64,000 bases of DNA, taken from contig NZ_BLPF01000001.1 in assembly GCF_011764425.1 (NCBI RefSeq), positions 2,223,001 to 2,287,000 on the forward strand, read 5' to 3'. Source of the DNA: Phytohabitans houttuyneae. Lineage in GTDB: Bacteria; Actinomycetota; Actinomycetes; Mycobacteriales; Micromonosporaceae. The notes under the pieces are model-generated. The model worked only from the letters and a program-made list of their open reading frames with translations, searched no databases and was not told where the DNA came from. A program made the position numbers and the translations under genes. The stretch's first letter is position 1. Each line of letters starts with the position of its first letter. Below are positions 16,885 through 56,536 of the stretch, one piece after another.

Positions 16885-17531
16885 CTACTTGGCCAACGCC
16901 CGCGCGGCGACCTTCAGGTCGGCGACCAGGCCGTCGAACGCCGCGTCGCGGTCGTCGGCGCGCAGCACCGCGGACGGGTGGATCGTGGCCATGGCCTGGA
17001 TCTCCGCCACCGGAAAGTCTTCCGGGTGCTGCGCCGACGCCGGCCACGGCAGCAGCTCGCCGCGCGAGCGGGTCACCCGGAACGACGGGCCGAGCAGCGC
17101 CTTCGCCGCGGTCGCGCCCAGCACCACGATCAGCTCCGGCTTCAGCAGCGACAGCTCGGCCACCAGCCACGGCCGGCACGCCTCGATGTGCACCCGGTCC
17201 GGGTCTGGTGGATGCGCCGCTTGCCGCGCTGCTCGAAGCGGAAGTGCTTCACCGCGTTCGTGATGTAGATGTGGGCGGGGTCGATGCCGGCCTCGTCGAC
17301 CGCGCGGCGCAGCAGATGGCCGGCCGGGCCGACGAAGGGCAGGCCCTTCTGGTCCTCGACGTCGCCGGGCTGCTCGCCCACGAATACCACCCGGGCGTGC
17401 GCGTCGCCCCGGCCGAACACCACCTGCGTGGCGTCCTGGTAAAGCTCGCAGCCCTTGCACGAAGGGGCGGCCGCCTTCAGCTTGTCGAGCGTGCGGGCGT
17501 CGTCCGGGACGAACTCCTGCGCTGTCGTCAC
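16885..17531 (-). CDS. UdgX-type uracil-DNA glycosylase, single-base frame break
   Basis: DNA repair enzyme of the family 4/UdgX group. The first half reads QPGDVEDQKGLPFVGPAG (active-site loop) and reaches KRRIH, the R-loop whose histidine forms the covalent uracil adduct in UdgX. The rest (VHIEACRPW, VLGATAA, ATIHPSAVLR) is in another frame. Adding one base at the GGG run 17201-17203 joins them into a normal protein of 215 residues. Cysteines in CKGC and ACRPW are the expected iron-sulfur ligands. The GTG start at 17531 overlaps the upstream mocR stop (GTGA). The conserved active-site residues on both sides of the break argue for a sequencing artefact rather than a dead gene. Confidence 0.88.
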
Positions 17532-46276: not shown

Positions 46277-47095
46277 GTGCCCGAGGGTGACACCGTCTGG
46301 AACACCGCCCGCGCGCTGCACCGCGCCCTGGCCGGTGGGCGGGTCACGGCCAGCGACTTCCGGGTGCCGCAGCTCGCCACCGTCGACCTCACCGGCTGGA
46401 CGGTGCTCGAGTCGGCCAGCCGCGGCAAGCACCTGCTGCTGCGGCTGCGCGGCCCGGAGACAGGAGCGAGCGCGGACGGCGGCGACCGCGACGGTGGGCG
46501 GCACCTGACCCTCCACTCGCACCTGCGGATGGACGGGGCCTGGCGGGCGTACGCGCCGGGTGAAAGGTGGGCGGCCCGGCCGGCGCACCTGATCCGCGCG
46601 GTGCTGCGCACGGCCGACGCGGTGGCGGTCGGCTACCACATACACGATCTCGCGCTGGTCCCCTCCGAAGAGGAAAAGGGCCTGGTCGGGCACCTCGGGC
46701 CGGACCTGCTCGGCGCCGACTGGGATCCCGCGGAGGCGGTGCGGCGGCTGGCCGCGCAGCCGGACACCGCGATCGCCGAGGCGCTGCTCGACCAGCGCAA
46801 CCTCGCCGGCATCGGCAACCTCTACAAGTGCGAGGTGCTCTTCCTGCGCGGCGTCGACCCGTGGACACCGGTGCGGGACGTGCCCGACCTCGCGGCCATG
46901 GTCACGCTCGCCCAGAAGCTCCTGGCCGCCAACCGCGGGCGGTGGACGCAGTCGACGACGGGCTCGCTGCGCAAGACCGAGACCACTTATGTGTACGGGC
47001 GCCGCGCGCAGCCCTGCCGCCGCTGCGGCACAGCGATCCGGAAGGTGGAGCAGGCCGAGCGCGTCACGTACTGGTGCCCCCGCTGTCAGACGTGA
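46277..47095 (+). CDS. nei: Formamidopyrimidine/endonuclease VIII-type DNA glycosylase (Nei family)
   Basis: A 272-residue base-excision repair enzyme. After removal of the initiator residue the protein begins PEGDTVWNTA, with the catalytic proline and adjacent glutamate. The H2TH region reads LLDQRNLAGIGNLYKCEVLF, and the C-terminal zinc finger is C-x2-C-x16-C-x2-C (CRRC...CPRC). GTG 46277 follows AGGATAGGAG. It starts 5 bases after the WYL regulator stop, so it can be cotranscribed. Nei1 versus Nei2 assignment is not attempted. Confidence 0.92.
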   Translation: MPEGDTVWNTARALHRALAGGRVTASDFRVPQLATVDLTGWTVLESASRGKHLLLRLRGPETGASADGGDRDGGRHLTLHSHLRMDGAWRAYAPGERWAARPAHLIRAVLRTADAVAVGYHIHDLALVPSEEEKGLVGHLGPDLLGADWDPAEAVRRLAAQPDTAIAEALLDQRNLAGIGNLYKCEVLFLRGVDPWTPVRDVPDLAAMVTLAQKLLAANRGRWTQSTTGSLRKTETTYVYGRRAQPCRRCGTAIRKVEQAERVTYWCPRCQT

Positions 47096-47814
47096 CCCTC
47101 GCCCACCCGCGCGATCAGGTTGGCCGCGGCCGGCGGGTCACCCGGCAGCGGCGCGATCCGCACGTGGTCGATCATCGAGCGGACCGCGGCGGCCGCGTCG
47201 TCGCGGATGAGGGTCACCACCCTTTCGGGTGACATGCGGGCCATCGGCGCCTCGGCCGCAAAGAGCGAGGGGGTACGCGCGCCCGCCTCGAGCAGCAGCG
47301 TCACCGCCTCCCAGCCGCTGTCCGCCCCGGGCACCTCGACCGCGAGCACGGCCAGCCCGTCGGGCACCGCGTCCCGGTACAGCTCGGCGAAGCGGGCTCG
47401 CAGATGCTCGGCGCTCGCGAAGTCCGCGCAGAGAATCACCCGGACGGGTGCCAGCGCCACGCTCGCCCACGCCTGCACCAGCGCGCTCACCGCCGTGGTC
47501 GGCGGGCCGTCCGAGGCCAGCTGCTCGTACAGCGTGCGCACGTCGTCCAAGGTGTCCCGGATGCCGTACCCCGCCTGCGCCCGCTCCCGCCCCAACTGCG
47601 CGTACGCCGCCGCGGCCGCCCGCCCCTCGACGAGCGCGCGGGTGACCGCGTCCACCCCGGGGACCCACCAGTCCTCCGGCGCCCACCCCTGCTCCCTGGA
47701 ACCGGCGCGCCAGGCGTCGCGCAACGCCTCGCCGTCCGTCCGGTGCCGGTAGATCGTCCGGGCCCGCCGCTCCGCGGCCTTCGCCGAGAGCCACCGGTCG
47801 CCATCCATCGCCAT
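47086..47814 (-). CDS. Conserved actinobacterial protein, possibly with a degenerate GGDEF-like domain
   Basis: A 242-residue protein beginning AMDGDRWLSAKAAERRARTIYRHRTDG, with DWWVPGVDAVTRAL at residues 50-65. The second half (LVQAWASVALAPVRVILC, EHLRARFAELYRD) has the outline of a GGDEF fold without a GGDEF motif, so any cyclase activity is unlikely. I know this arrangement only as a family of uncharacterised Micromonosporaceae proteins. ATG 47814 has GGGAG 7 bases upstream; an upstream frame to 47871 adds nothing. Divergent from the sigma fusion at 48020 and overlapping nei by 10 bases at the ends. Confidence 0.65.
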   Translation of the reverse strand: MAMDGDRWLSAKAAERRARTIYRHRTDGEALRDAWRAGSREQGWAPEDWWVPGVDAVTRALVEGRAAAAAYAQLGRERAQAGYGIRDTLDDVRTLYEQLASDGPPTTAVSALVQAWASVALAPVRVILCADFASAEHLRARFAELYRDAVPDGLAVLAVEVPGADSGWEAVTLLLEAGARTPSLFAAEAPMARMSPERVVTLIRDDAAAAVRSMIDHVRIAPLPGDPPAAANLIARVGEGHV

Positions 47815-48019
47815 TAACCCGCTCCCACGTTCGGTGCGAAACCCTGGCCGTCCGGGCTTCGTCACCTCCACGACAGGGCGACCCCGGGGTTATGACTCCG
47901 ATTTTCGCGAGAGGATTAATCGGGACAACACGGACGGGTGGCGTGACAAGCCGCGAAGTGTGGCGTTGTCCCAGTGACTTCCCCCGAACGGTGCTTTCCC
48001 CGAACCCGTGGCAGGGCAG

Positions 48020-50358
48020 ATGACTGACTTCTCCGCCGACTCCGCGCAAGCCTCCGACGCGGAGCTGATCGCGGCCGTCCGCGGCGGCGACACCGCGGCC
48101 TACGAGTCGCTCTACCGCCGGCACGTGGAGGCCGCCCGCCGCATGACCCGCACGCTCGTGCCCGACCCGGCCGACGTGGAGGATCTCGTCGCCGAGGCGT
48201 TCGCGAAGCTGCTCGCGACGCTGGAGGAGGGCGGCGGGCCGGAGTCCGCTTTCCGGCCGTACCTGCTCACGACCATCCGCCGCCTCTTCTACGACCGGAC
48301 CCGCCGGGTCCGCCGCGAGTCGGTGACCGGCGACCCCGAGGCGCACGACCCCGGGGTGCCCTTCGTGGACACGGCCGTCCAGGGGATGGAGTACACCTTC
48401 GTCGCGCGCGCCTTCGCCCGCCTGCCCGAACACTGGCAGACCGTGCTGTGGCACACCGAGGTCGAGGGCGAGAATCCGGCCGACGTGGCGCCGCTGATGG
48501 GGCTGACGCCCAACGGCGTGGCGGCGATGGCGTACCGGGCCCGCGAGCGGCTGCGCCAGTACTACCTGCAGGAGCACATCGCCGCCGACCCGGACGACGA
48601 GTGCCGGTGGTCGATCGAGCGGCTGGGCGCGCACGTCCGCAGTGGACTGTCCCGGCGGGACAGCCGGCGCGTCGAGTCCCATCTGGACGAGTGCCGCCGC
48701 TGCCACCTGCTCTTCGTCGAGCTCGCCGAGGTGAACGCGGGCATGCGCGAGGTGCTTGCCGGTGCGCTGCTGGCCGGCTCGGCCGGTGCGTACCTCGGCG
48801 CCGGGGCTCCACCGCCGGCTCCGGGCTCGGGCTCGCCGGCCGGCTCGTGCGGCGCCGCTCGGTGCAGGTGGCGGCCGGCGCTGCGGCGGTGGCCGCGGCA
48901 GCCGCGCTCGTGATGCTGCTGGCCGGCCAGCCCGTACCGGTGGCCGAGCAGCCACCACCCGGTCCCCAGGCGGTCGCACCGCTGAACCCGCCCGCCGTGG
49001 CCCCGCCGGCCTCGCCCGCGCCGTCGACAGTGCCGCCGTCCACGGTGGCACCCTCGCGGCCGGCGACACCCGCACCCGTGACGCCGCCCTCGCCCTCGCC
49101 CACGCCGCGCGCGGTGCCGGTGACGGCGCGGCTGGAGCCGGTGGGCACGCTGGTGCGCGGTCGGCCGGGCGTGCTCGCGCTGACCGTCATCCACCCTGGA
49201 CAGTCCGGCGGCACCGGTGGCGGCTCCGCCCTGCCGGCCGCGCCGGACACCGGCCCGCTCACCGCGCAGGTGACGCTCCCTCGTGGAGTGTCGCTGCGCG
49301 CCGGTCCGGCCGGCGACGGGTGGACGTGCGCCGCCAGCCGGTGCGGGCGGGCCGCGCTGGCCGCCGGTGGCACCACCCGCGCGTACCTGCCGGTCGCGGT
49401 CTCCGGCACGGCCGGCGGCGAAGCACCGAGCGTGCGGCTCACCGCGCCCCGCGCCCGCACGGTCGCGGTCACCGCACCGGCCGGGGTACAGGCCACCGGC
49501 CTGCCCGCGGTCTTCGCCGGCACGGCGCCCGCCGCGCTCGCGGTCGGCGGCAACTCGCTGCTGTCCTGCGGCGGCACGTCGCGCACGTGCGGGGACGCGC
49601 GTTCGGGGCAGCGGGAGGCGGACAACGGCGACTACCACATGACGCGGTACGCCGACCCGCAGGCGCCGGCCGGTTACCCGTACGGCGCGGCGGTCAGCGC
49701 AGCCACGATCCCGGTCCGCGGCAAGGTGCTCTGGGCCGGCCTCTACTGGTCCGGCACCGGACCCCGGCCGAACGAACCTGTCGCGCGGCTGCGTCCGCCC
49801 GGCGCGGACGGGTACGTGCCGGTGAGCGCCACGCGCGTGGACACGGCGTCGGGCGGTGACTTCGGCGCCGTGTACCAGGCGTGGGCCGACGTCACCTCAC
49901 TGGTGCGGGGCAGCCGCGGCGGCACGTGGTGGGTGGCGGTGGACAAGCAGGCGTTCAAGGGCGGCTACAACGCGTACGGCGGCTGGGCTCTGCTCCTGGT
50001 CGTCGACGGCGGCGGTCCACAGCGGACGGTCGCGGTGTTCGACGGCTTCACGCCGCTGTCCCGCGGAGCCTCCTACTCGTCCCCACTGTGGGCGGTGCCC
50101 GGGGCGGCGAGCGTCGGGCTTGTCGCGTGGGAGGGCGACCGGGTGCTCGCCGGTGACCGGCTGGCGGTCGGCGGCGCGGCGGTCGGCGGCGACAACGTGG
50201 CCGCGGGCCGGGCGGACGGCACACCGGCGGGCTGGCACACGCTCGGCACGGACGCCCGCGTGCTCCCCGCCCGCCCGCGCAGCCCCGCGCTCACCGCCTC
50301 GGCGGCGACGGACGCGTGGCTGCTCGGCCCGGTGGCTCTCGTGACCGGTCCTAACTGA
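48020..50358 (+). CDS. ECF sigma factor fused to zinc-binding anti-sigma-like segment, membrane span and extracytoplasmic domain; one frame break
   Basis: Residues about 10-175 form sigma regions 2 and 4 (AYESLYRRHVEAARRM, DVEDLVAEAFAKLL; TVLWHTEVEGENPADVAPLMGL). Then HLDECRRC (H-x3-C-x2-C) gives an anti-sigma zinc motif. The frame breaks in 48803-48810; one added base continues into a membrane span (AAVAAAAALVMLL), a Pro/Ala/Thr-rich linker of about 70 residues, and a roughly 380-residue exported part with Cys pairs and segments such as KVLWAGLYWSGTG and WWVAVDKQAFKGGYNAYGGW. Repaired length 779. The plan implies a membrane-held sigma released by proteolysis when the outer domain senses a signal. 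ATG 48020 is preferred to GTG 48008. Confidence 0.85.
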
Positions 50359-50728
50359 AGCTGTACGGCCCGAAGCGGCCCCACGCCACGATGGCGCAGA
50401 GCACGAGCAGCACGAGGTTGGCGGCGACCATCGGCCACTCCTTGCGGCGCCCGTGCACGATCGCCGCGCCGATCATCACGATCACCAGGCCCGTGGCGGC
50501 GATCGGCACGAGCACCGGGGCGATGTCGAGGATCGCCGGCAGGACAAGCCCGATGCCGCCGAGCAGGTCGGCCGCGCCGATCGCCTTCACGGTGCCGGGC
50601 GAGTAGCTGTCGACCCAGCCGAGCCCGGACGCGGCAAGCTTTTCCTTCGACTGCACGAGCTTCAGCAGCCCGGCGATGACGAAGGCGGCGGCGAGCACGC
50701 CAGCAATGATCCACAACACCACGTTCAC
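50351..50728 (-). CDS. DoxX-family membrane protein
   Basis: A 125-residue protein with four hydrophobic spans (WIIAGVLAAAFVIAGLLKL, AADLLGGIGLVLPAI, VPIAATGLVIVMIGAAIVHG, VAANLVLLVLCAIVAW), the DoxX pattern. Cellular role unknown; DoxX-like proteins are linked to redox or quinone-related membrane functions. Divergent from a MarR regulator with an operator-like spacer, so probably repressed by it. Its end overlaps the sigma fusion by 8 bases. Confidence 0.88.
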   Translation of the reverse strand: MNVVLWIIAGVLAAAFVIAGLLKLVQSKEKLAASGLGWVDSYSPGTVKAIGAADLLGGIGLVLPAILDIAPVLVPIAATGLVIVMIGAAIVHGRRKEWPMVAANLVLLVLCAIVAWGRFGPYSFS

Positions 50729-50740
50729 TGCGCCTCCACG

Positions 50741-50784
50741 TCACTTAAAGCGTGAACCGCAAGCTAGTGCTTGATCACTTAAAG
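50741..50784. promoter_or_regulatory. MarR/DoxX divergent control region
   Basis: TCACTTAAAG occurs twice (50741-50750 and 50775-50784), flanking the inverted repeat CAAGC-TAGT-GCTTG (50760-50773). The symmetrical AT-rich block fits MarR dimers bound over both promoters. Confidence 0.6.
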
Positions 50785-50809
50785 ACGCAAGTAAAGATAT
50801 GATCTCGGG

Positions 50810-51283
50810 GTGGAGCCGAGGTGGCTGGACGCCGGCGAGCAGGAGACGTGGCTCGCCCTCGTGAGCGTCCTCATCCGGCTGCCGGCGGCGCTCGACCGGC
50901 AGTTGCAGCGGGACGCCGGGATAAGCCACTTCGAGTACCAGGTGCTCGCCGGCCTTTCCATGTCGCCGCGGCGGACGCTGCGGATGAGCGATCTGGCCAC
51001 CTTCGCCGACGCGTCGCTGCCCCGCCTCTCCCAGGTGGTCGCCCGGCTGGAGCGGCGCGGCTGGGTGCGGCGCGCACCCGACCCCGACGACGGCCGCTAC
51101 ACGCTGGCGATCCTCACCGATGACGGCTGGGACAAGGTGGTGGCGACCGCCCCCGGACACGTCGAGGAGGTGCGCCGCCTCGTATTCGACCCGACGACCA
51201 GGGCACAGCAGCACCAGCTCGGCACGATCGGGAGGCGCATCATGGGTGCCATCGACCCGGACGGCCCCTGCCCGCCGCGCTGA
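50810..51283 (+). CDS. MarR-family transcriptional regulator
   Basis: A 157-residue winged-helix regulator: ISHFEYQVLAGLSMSPRRTLRMSDLA, recognition helix DASLPRLSQVVARLERRGW and wing RRAPDPDDGRYTLAILTDDG. GTG 50810 is used; it follows a purine-rich GATATGATCTCGGG stretch. Probably controls itself and the divergent doxX gene through the spacer. Confidence 0.92.
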   Translation: MEPRWLDAGEQETWLALVSVLIRLPAALDRQLQRDAGISHFEYQVLAGLSMSPRRTLRMSDLATFADASLPRLSQVVARLERRGWVRRAPDPDDGRYTLAILTDDGWDKVVATAPGHVEEVRRLVFDPTTRAQQHQLGTIGRRIMGAIDPDGPCPPR

Positions 51284-51409: not shown

Positions 51410-52218
51410 TCAGGCGGTCTGGGGTGGCGTGCGCAGCTGGTCGGGGATGCGCATCGGCTCGGTGAGGTCGCGCAGCTCGGCGAGCCCGGCCGCGACCCCG
51501 CGCAGCATGTCGCTCGCCTCGGTGAGCCGCGAGACGGCAGGGTGCTCGGTGGCGGCGCGGCCGTCCTCGGCCACGTAGCTGGCGGCGGCCGCGACAAGCC
51601 GCTCGTAGGCCACGACACCGCTGTCCAGCTGCTCGACCAGCGTGCGCCGCGCCTCCTCCAGCGCGGGCCGCGAGTCGGGCGGCGCGAAACGCAGGGCCTT
51701 GTCGACGCTCGCCACCCGGTGGGCAAGGTCGCGCAGCGACTGCTCGGCCACCGCGGCCTCCAGCACGGCGGGCTCGCCGGGACCGGTCAGCCGGCTGGAC
51801 AGGCCGGAGAGGGTGAGCGACGCGCGGTCGAGGCGGGTCCAGTGCCCGAGCGCCGCCGAGCCGCGCATCGAAAAGCGGGCCTGCTGGCGGCGGACCTCGT
51901 CGAGGGCGGAGCGGCCGACCGGCAGGCGCTGGACGGCGGCCAGCAGCTTGGCGCGGGCCTGCTCCCCGGCCGCGACGGGGTCGAGCGGTGGCGGCGCGGG
52001 CTCGGCGGCCAGCGCGCGGAAGTCGACCCACCGCCACGCGGCGAGCGCGATCGAGCCGCCGGCCGCGGCGGCCCAGGCCGCGTCGGGCAGGCCAAGGCCG
52101 GAATACGGCGTGAGCACCGCCGCGGCACCCCCAGGCCCGCGGCGAGCACGCTCCACCGGCGCGCGGAACGGCGCAGCCGGCGAAGCCGCCGGAAGTAGCG
52201 GGCCCGGGGATCCTTCAC
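51410..52218 (-). CDS. pspM: PspM-like phage-shock envelope-stress protein, one frame break
   Basis: The start KDPRARYFRRLRRLRRSARRW and two short hydrophobic stretches (LTPYSGLGLPDAAWAAAAGGSIALAAW) are followed by a long helical region, as in actinobacterial PspM, the membrane partner next to PspA. The frame breaks at the C5 run 52128-52132; one extra base joins SVLAAGLG to GAAAVLTPY, giving 269 residues. Twelve bases downstream of pspA in the same operon. Confidence 0.85.
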
Positions 52219-52230
52219 CGCATGCTCCCG

Positions 52231-53094
52231 CTAGCCGGCCGCGCTGGCGTCGCCGGCGGACTTTTCCTTGTTGGCCAAGCTCGCCCGGATCTGGTCGAGG
52301 CGCGCGACCCCGGCCGAGTCGGCGGGGCTCGCCTGCTCGACGGCGGGGGTCGCTGGCTTGGAGGCCAGCTTGTCGCCGGCCATGCTGGCCCGGATCTGCT
52401 CCAGCCGCGAGGAGCCGGCGAGGTCCAACGTGGACTTCTGGATCTCGAGCATGCGGCCCTCGACCGAGTTGCCGGCCAGCTCGGCGCGGCCCATCGCGTT
52501 GGCGTAGCGGCGCTCGATCTTTTCGCGCACCTCGTCGAGCGACGGCGTGTTGCCCGGCGCGGCCAGCGCGGACATCGACTCCAGCGAGCGGGCCACGCTC
52601 TCCTGCATCTTGGCCTGCTCGAGCTGGCTCAGCAGCTTGGTGCGCTCGGCCAGCTTCTGCTGCAGGACCATCGCGTTGTTTTCGACCGCCTGGCGGGCCT
52701 GGCCCGCGGCGCCGAGCGCCTGGTCGTGCAGCGTCTTGAGGTCTTCCATCGACTGCTCGGCGGCGACCAGCTGGGTGGCGAGCGTCTGTGCGGTCTGCTC
52801 GTACTTACCCGCCTCGGGCTCGTCGCCGCCGGCCCGGGACTTGTCCGCGAGCACCAGCGCCTGGCGGGCCATCGACTGGAGCTTTTCCACCTCGGACATC
52901 TGGCGGGAGAGCTTCATCTCGAGCTGCCGCTGGTTACCGATGACGGCGGCCGCCTGCTGGACGAGCGCCTGGTGCTGGCGCTGCGCGTCTTCGATCGCCT
53001 GCTGGATCTGCACCTTGGGATCGGCGTACTCGTCGATCTTGGCGCCGAACAACGCCAAAAAGTAGCGCCAGCCCTTGACGAACGGGTTCGCCAT
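52231..53094 (-). CDS. pspA: PspA/Vipp1 (IM30) membrane-stress protein
   Basis: A 287-residue, almost wholly coiled-coil ESCRT-III-like protein that coats and repairs stressed inner membrane. The N-terminal amphipathic helix ([21 protein letters not shown]), the [14 protein letters not shown] motif and long Gln/Glu/Lys heptads are diagnostic. The C-terminal extension has two similar segments (LEQIRASMA and LDQIRASLA). Downstream of clgR, as in mycobacteria. Confidence 0.95.
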
Positions 53095-53284
53095 CTCCGC
53101 GGTATCCCCTCAGTGTCAGCACTCTGGTCGGGCCGCCACCGCTGGGACGACAGGCCCCCGCGGTCCGGCAGAGTTCCATACTCCCAGCCCGGCGCCAACC
53201 CGTCATGCGACCTCAGGGGGATATCCGGGTATGTGCCGACGCGCCTGGGTGGCTGCCGCCCCGCAGGCGTCAACCCTACGCGCG

Positions 53285-53833
53285 TCAGGCGACGCAGACT
53301 ACATCGCGGTCGCGCGGGGTGGGACGCACGGTGCGCGTGGTGCGCAGGACCGCGGCCAGCGGGGTGTCCTGGCGGACGGAGACGGAGACCGCACCGTCGG
53401 TGATCTTGCCAGAAGCGACCTTGCTGGGCCTGGCCATGCGGTGCACCGCGGCCTCGGGCTGGCTCGGGGTCTCCTCGCCGGCGCCCGCCTTGGCCGGCAC
53501 CGGGGCCGGTGCCGGGGTGGGCGCGGGAGTGCTCGACGGCGGCGTCTCGCGGCTCTCGCGCGCGCCGCCCTGTGCCGGGACGAGCACGTGCTCCATCTGC
53601 TCGGCCAGCGCCATCTCGTCGCTGACCTCGCGCAACAGCTCCGAGAGCTGGGCGCCGAGGGCCTCGCAGATCGAGGCGAGCAGCTCGCTGGACGCCTCCT
53701 TCTGCCCCCGCTCGATCTCGGAGAGATATCCGAGGCTCACGTTGGCAGCGGTGGAGACCTCGCGCAGGGTGCGGTGCTGCCCCTGCCGGCGCGCGCGTAG
53801 TGCGTCACCGATCACACGGCGTAGCAGGATCAT
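53285..53833 (-). CDS. clgR: ClgR-type XRE transcriptional activator
   Basis: A 182-residue protein. The HTH covers about residues 20-75 ([34 protein letters not shown]) and is characteristic of ClgR, which activates clp protease and psp genes. A Pro/Ala-rich linker (about 100-130) and a C-terminal segment ending VVCVA follow; a small hydrophobic C-terminus fits the ClpP-dependent turnover known for ClgR (inference). Upstream of pspA by 190 bases, which probably hold a pspA promoter. Confidence 0.92.
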
Positions 53834-56467: not shown

Positions 56468-56536
56468 CCGAGGGTACCGGTCCCAGCAGCGGAAGCACCT
56501 GAGGCGTCCGTACCGGAAGTGCGAGACGATCGAGAG

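Follow-up and report, generated by a model that had tools for sequence, protein, structure and literature searches.

Most ECF switches depend on an anti-sigma factor and a sensor that are separate proteins; the question raised by this locus is whether a single protein can hold all of these parts. The locus lies in a 64,000-nt stretch of the Phytohabitans houttuyneae genome (GCF_011764425.1, NZ_BLPF01000001.1, 2,223,001-2,287,000, forward strand), hereafter the window, whose internal numbering is used throughout. The original prediction had read here one chain made of a sigma factor, an anti-sigma domain, a membrane span and an exported sensor, interrupted by a one-base frame break near 48803. 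Is this chain real, what is its exported part, and how would it work?

As judged from its sequence and that of its relatives, the gene is a real fusion of an ECF sigma factor, a zinc-type anti-sigma domain, a membrane span, a Pro-rich linker and an exported part (Table 1). In the window, these parts form one protein only when the frame break is allowed for. In both P. suffuscus and P. maris, an ATG occupies the equivalent position at the start of the sigma gene. Sigma regions 2 and 4 and the zf-HC2 domain all lie within frame 2 (48008-48913), and the sigma part also scores 58.7 bits with the NCBIfam model TIGR02937, against a cut-off of 42.9. The zinc motif is entire, with C-x25-H-x3-C-x2-C at 48602-48703; Hx3Cx2C is given as the signature of the class I (zinc) anti-sigma domain in excerpts of PMC7406223. 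From charge, the span is predicted to be oriented N-in/C-out. The exported part follows in frame 1 at 49120-50355, with its stop at 50358. An exported domain of roughly 380 residues behind a low-complexity linker had been foreseen: both are present, and the exported part is somewhat larger than that, the linker having about 64 residues and the folded ectodomain 412.

Table 1 Features of the fusion gene and of its upstream neighbourhood, in window coordinates
Feature	Positions	Strand	Basis and remarks
Divergent gene: helical N-domain and degenerate GGDEF-like C-domain	47086..47871	-	start probably 47814
Candidate conserved upstream element (ATGAC...), diverged form	47890..47922		TGACGCG recurrence in relatives
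Sigma + anti-sigma part	48020..48913	+	frame 2, ATG 48020; GTG 48008 is an alternative start
Sigma-70 region 2	48110..48316	+	PF04542, E 9.7e-13, over cut-off
Sigma-70 region 4	48404..48553	+	PF08281, E 2.9e-5, 24.1 bits, just below cut-off 25.7
Zinc-type anti-sigma domain (zf-HC2)	48602..48706	+	PF13490, E 4.8e-7, 30.2 bits, cut-off 22.2
One-base frame break region	48780..48866	+	tblastn frame change vs two congeners, GC3 phase switch
Ala-rich membrane span, preceded by RRRS	48868..48924	+	frame 1, mean hydropathy 2.38, 19 residues
Pro-rich low-complexity linker	48925..49119	+	frame 1, 65 residues, 25 Pro
Stalk, Ig-like, DUF11/CLIPPER type	49120..49479	+	first ~120 residues of ectodomain; boundary approximate
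Head, all-beta, DUF3344-related, conserved Cys pair	49480..50355	+	~290 residues; alignment, model

The break is located where it had been proposed: the GC3 phase switches near 48805, and the single-frame proteins of P. suffuscus and P. maris, aligned to the window by tblastn, shift frame at the same place. Frame 1 offers GTG codons at 48847, 48862, 48868 and 48889, with no clear ribosome site before any of them, so that a split gene, with separate initiation of the second half, is unsupported. The reading frames of the window were compared with the matching regions of both congeners. A first tblastn pass found 11 of the 28 ORFs of matching regions for P. suffuscus (G351) and 6 of the 22 for P. 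maris (G397) in more than one frame, many of them being shadow ORFs; restriction to ORFs with coding-like GC3 left 7/30 and 4/27 flagged, respectively. The GC3 phase switches at each of the three breaks common to both comparisons (36780, 48805 and 63750); two further breaks, at 17202 and 18.5-18.8 kb, show up in the P. suffuscus comparison only. A supposed break near 56500 is the boundary between two divergent genes, and those near 28 kb and 53 kb fall in reading frames that are not coding-like. Because two other window genes are broken relative to both congeners, assembly error is the likeliest and simplest cause, a recent real lesion being the second option; the window assembly probably contains indel errors. 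Artefact or recent lesion, the break is uninformative about how the family works.

A true break in this strain, leaving the gene to make a short soluble protein with sigma and zinc domains, no anchor and no ectodomain, is unlikely. The break is present in the assembly and the product up to 48913 retains both domains; one more genome has a broken fusion, with the break inside the linker (G364, L202), and excerpts of PMC5826349 describe a stop within the Pro-rich region of the S. clavuligerus ortholog of SCO4117, where its authors suspect a sequence error. Against a true lesion stand the other breaks in the window, which point to assembly error, and the purifying selection on both halves of the gene (dN/dS of 0.19-0.25 and 0.37-0.43). 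Pro-rich, high-GC linkers may be error-prone. Programmed frameshifting or phase variation at the junction, giving soluble and membrane-held forms, is highly improbable: the window gene and L202 are both interrupted between the sigma part and the ectodomain, but at differing sites, other window genes are broken as well, and most fusions need no shift, 40 ORFs having both parts in one frame. Another ORF, L204, stops after the stalk.

In relatives the chain is uninterrupted: across at least four actinomycete lineages, the parts occupy one open frame, which upholds the one-protein architecture originally proposed. Genome contigs were scanned with the C-terminal 264 residues, giving 147 relatives, 80 of which were retained. 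The sigma part and the ectodomain are in the same frame in 40 of the 60 ORFs that have a sigma part; this count includes at least three second copies (L101/L001, L102/L002, L109/L004) and is no measure of prevalence, the loci having mostly been found via the ectodomain. We chose 37 relatives as single open frames, omitting L202 (broken), L204 (short), L148 (distant) and re-fetched copies; they belong to Micromonosporaceae, Thermomonosporaceae, Streptosporangiaceae and Micrococcales. All 37 carry C-x25-H-x3-C-x2-C; with the window included, the predicted H-x3-C-x2-C motif is found in 38 of 38 rows. All 37 also have a span with a mean hydropathy above 1.6. The 70 residues past the span contain from 2 (L021) to 33 prolines; in L021 the detected span may be the wrong segment. 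Within Phytohabitans, the gene is a single open frame in three other genomes (797, 808 and 793 aa) and is divided over two contigs in a fourth; a fifth has no match. In L021, L055 and L077, the fusions are 1094-1332 aa long, with additional DUF11-like repeats between span and head; the stalk length is variable.

The exported domain had not been recognised in the original prediction. Taken alone, the frame-1 part of the window gives no match at E<=1 in Pfam or NCBIfam, and chance matches only against PDB sequences (E 0.98 and 2.5); NCBIfam has no match on any of the 107 rows of the ectodomain alignment. Among these 107 members, 13 match PF11824 (DUF3344) at E<=0.001, the best at 8.7e-10, and two match PF01345 (DUF11); the window protein itself matches neither of them in Pfam. 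The head family thus appears to reach DUF3344, and the exported domain would be no orphan but a DUF3344-related head on a DUF11/CLIPPER-like stalk. In the head, C157 is invariant and C150 nearly so.

An AlphaFold (AF2) model of the ectodomain, built from the 107-sequence alignment, is nearly all beta, with a mean pLDDT of 95.4. Foldseek found no whole-domain match for it in the PDB, its 19 matches at E<=0.001 having TMq <=0.21. The Foldseek list also has, above that E-value, 9IFR (prob 1.00, TMt 0.53, E 4.2e-3, aligned range not given), described as a solved CLIPPER domain in excerpts of PMC12617251. The first 120 residues of the ectodomain look like a DUF11/CLIPPER-type Ig domain.

The same head occurs in proteins devoid of a sigma part, where the stalk-like part is repeated behind it. 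This set was drawn from loci up to L129; 24 locus ids were dropped as known or likely fusion tails or re-fetched copies (including the contig-cut L003, L045 and L072), and 65 ORFs remain. At least 41 of the 65 have one or more DUF11-like repeats after the head and at least 8 of the 65 have an LPxTG-like end, both figures being lower bounds, with many ORFs cut by locus ends. The head is mostly near the N-terminus in these ORFs and C-terminal in the fusions. Lone head ORFs of 393-424 aa are found in five Streptomyces-type genomes of one genus (L139-L143, L252-L256); NPCBM in the sigma relatives of this genus (six of seven scanned) is the reason for taking it to be Streptomyces. A GT4 glycosyltransferase adjoins the lone head in 5/5 of these loci, followed by Wzy-like, MurJ-like or sugar-transferase genes where further neighbours were scanned (L253, L254, L255).

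Fibrillar surface proteins with DUF3344 and DUF11 (CLIPPER) appear to have the same head and stalk types, as described in parts of PMC9210967 and PMC12617251; a fibrillar adhesin survey places DUF3344 in a cluster of ambiguous function, perhaps catalytic (excerpts of PMC9210967). Unlike the fusions, these surface proteins are without a sigma factor. We found no sigma factor with a DUF3344/DUF11 ectodomain in the literature, among the matches listed, which is no proof of absence.

We then asked how the sigma part relates to known fusions. The sigma query has relatives in 16 of 296 genomes of the phylum, ECF52-type proteins with NPCBM included. As a positive control, NPCBM was found by scanning in six of seven Streptomyces-type relatives, L094 being without it; the window frame-1 part has no Pfam match to NPCBM. 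In a 62-row tree of the sigma part, the NPCBM set is a clade of eight with 100/100 support, consisting of seven rows labelled NPCBM (of which L086, contig-cut, is unscanned) and L094. The window sigma falls apart from it, in a clade of 22 (96/92). Head-bearing proteins are distributed on the tree with five changes of label, and with 20 of 59 inner branches open no single clade is shown for them. Membership in ECF52 is rejected on both counts, absence of NPCBM and position outside the NPCBM clade. The window's clade also contains a second sigma of the same genome (L098, C1:4983360-4983902), which shows 61% identity across residues 9-189 and lacks the zinc domain, the span and the ectodomain; this free paralog might share promoters with the fusion.

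The general design is known from ECF52/SCO4117, ECF48, ECF53 and IutY; what is new is the ectodomain and the partner gene. IutY is not known to have an adhesin-like ectodomain, and unlike the fusions it belongs to an iron-starvation cell-surface signalling system of a Gram-negative bacterium. In RsgI/SigI, the sigma and the anti-sigma are separate proteins. In part order the fusion resembles ECF52: SCO4117 of Streptomyces coelicolor, as described in excerpts of PMC5826349, joins an ECF sigma, a zinc finger, a span, a Pro-rich extension and a C-terminal surface domain in one actinobacterial protein, an order that the window shows only if the frame break is bridged. That protein ends in an NPCBM carbohydrate-binding domain (same excerpts), whereas the window protein ends in a DUF11-like stalk and a DUF3344-related head. 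ECF53 and ECF48, likened here by description only, have a predicted C-terminal fused anti-sigma, membrane spans and regulatory extensions of up to 400 residues, and IutY (ECF243, Pseudomonas putida) is a sigma fused to its own membrane anti-sigma and freed by Prc and RseP (both from excerpts of PMC8999054). The likeness to RsgI/SigI of Clostridium thermocellum lies in the sensing outside the cell and in the cut by RseP in the membrane helix, followed by ClpXP (excerpts of PMC12203970).

The original prediction also pointed to the divergent, degenerate GGDEF-like gene as a possible partner. This guess is supported because a gene of its family adjoins the sigma gene in 22 of the 39 sigma loci, 21 times divergently. 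The sole convergent case is L209, whose sigma ORF has no ectodomain. Thirteen of the 22 partner-bearing loci are rows of the profile used, initially recovered in a tblastn search that took the window gene as its query. No partner gene is in view in the 17 other loci: five Planotetraspora, nine Micromonosporaceae, two Actinomadura and L021, the last with too little upstream sequence to show one. A search of 200 family genomes gave 16 strong places with fetched loci, counting the window. In 12 of them the gene is divergent to a sigma ORF; one place shares its strand with a weak partial sigma match, another is convergent, and L197 and L198 have no sigma ORF alongside. These two are extra partner copies in two genomes of the genus, with no sigma gene in the surrounding 8.5 kb (L207, L208).

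This partner is likely a degenerate GGDEF protein. Its C-terminal half, compared once with 13 GGDEF domains of its own genome, gave an hhalign probability of 96.0 (E 4e-9), and the catalytic GG[D/E]EF signature is absent at the aligned place. The weak matches of the partner profile fall in open frames of 512-1157 aa, presumably GGDEF proteins. In the profile libraries, 14 partner members have no Pfam GGDEF match, the window's own gene has none in Pfam or NCBIfam, and 24 partner rows give scattered single NCBIfam matches, the best at E 0.017. The partner model has a pLDDT of 89.4; Foldseek found nothing in the PDB at E<=0.001, with diguanylate cyclase (GGDEF) chains recurring among the 50 matches listed. 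A globin-like N-domain was dropped, its matches being at chance level only.

Beyond the domain order, its conservation and the partner linkage, which are read from sequence, we infer inhibition, cleavage, ligand and regulon. The protein is probably a one-protein, membrane-held ECF sigma switch with an adhesin-type ectodomain, freed by regulated proteolysis. The zinc anti-sigma domain would restrain, in cis, the cytoplasmic sigma domains of the same chain, with the Ala-rich span and the Pro-rich linker connecting them to the stalk and adhesin-type head outside. The most plausible cue at the cell surface would be contact with a surface, or a polysaccharide of the wall or outside the cell, a guess made because the head occurs in surface proteins and at glycosyltransferase loci. 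Proteases would then cut the linker or stalk, after which a protease of the site-2 type would cut within the membrane span. The fragment so released would join RNA polymerase, perhaps once trimmed at its anti-sigma end. It is possible that ClpXP strips this end after the membrane cut, since the Ala-rich span is like the RseP/ClpXP substrate region in RsgI (excerpts of PMC12203970). The degenerate GGDEF protein would act as a linked cytoplasmic modulator or target. M50 proteases are present in the genome of the window, and also in 14/14 control genomes.

That the window protein must be cleaved, as originally predicted, is an extrapolation from SCO4117 and IutY, the nearest characterised proteins, which suggest proteolytic release (excerpts of PMC5826349 and PMC8999054). 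We regard it as quite unlikely that the sigma is active while tethered, or is switched by a conformational change through the membrane with no proteolysis. A proposal cited in the SCO4117 paper leaves room for a conformational change (excerpts of PMC5826349), but one span with a Pro-rich linker behind it would be a poor mechanical relay, and IutY is activated by proteolysis (excerpts of PMC8999054).

In the membrane-held switch freed by proteolysis, one chain would span from RNA polymerase to the cell surface, with a sensor shaped like an adhesin head on its stalk. If this switch works as proposed, filamentous actinomycetes would have a direct path by which exopolysaccharide or contact with a surface controls transcription. 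A bolder form, which we advance tentatively and consider rather unlikely, is that adhesion itself gates the sigma: the inverted adhesin-type head, on its stalk and anchored by its own sigma/anti-sigma part, would sense binding to extracellular polysaccharide or to a surface, leading to proteolysis and transcription, with the catalytically dead GGDEF partner tying the switch to, or replacing, the c-di-GMP control of surface life. A tie to c-di-GMP biology is testable through the linked pseudo-GGDEF gene. DUF3344 is widespread and has no known function, and its use in a sensor would give a handle on what it binds.

The original prediction had suggested looking for a promoter motif upstream of 48020. 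The heptamer TGACGCG recurs in 18 of the 34 regions upstream of the sigma gene, against 13 for the best shuffled 7-mer, with 10 of the 18 carriers in one genus. It is in none of the three Phytohabitans rows, the window having a different form, and no assignment to -35/-10 elements was reached. The element begins with ATG; a coding nature was rejected, the frame differing between relatives.

On its other side, the fusion is flanked at 51410-53833 by convergent genes of the Rv2743c-family, PspA/IM30 and HTH types, a set which resembles the actinobacterial ClgR-PspA envelope operon. The set lies beside the fusion, at least in part, in four other Phytohabitans genomes. Among the loci fetched, PspA-type genes adjoin the fusion in this genus only, and operon partners besides the divergent gene were rejected on this ground; the proximity is a hint of envelope biology. 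Between the fusion and this set, DoxX-like and MarR-type genes are found at 50351-51283 in the window; they are also there in P. maris, and not in P. suffuscus.
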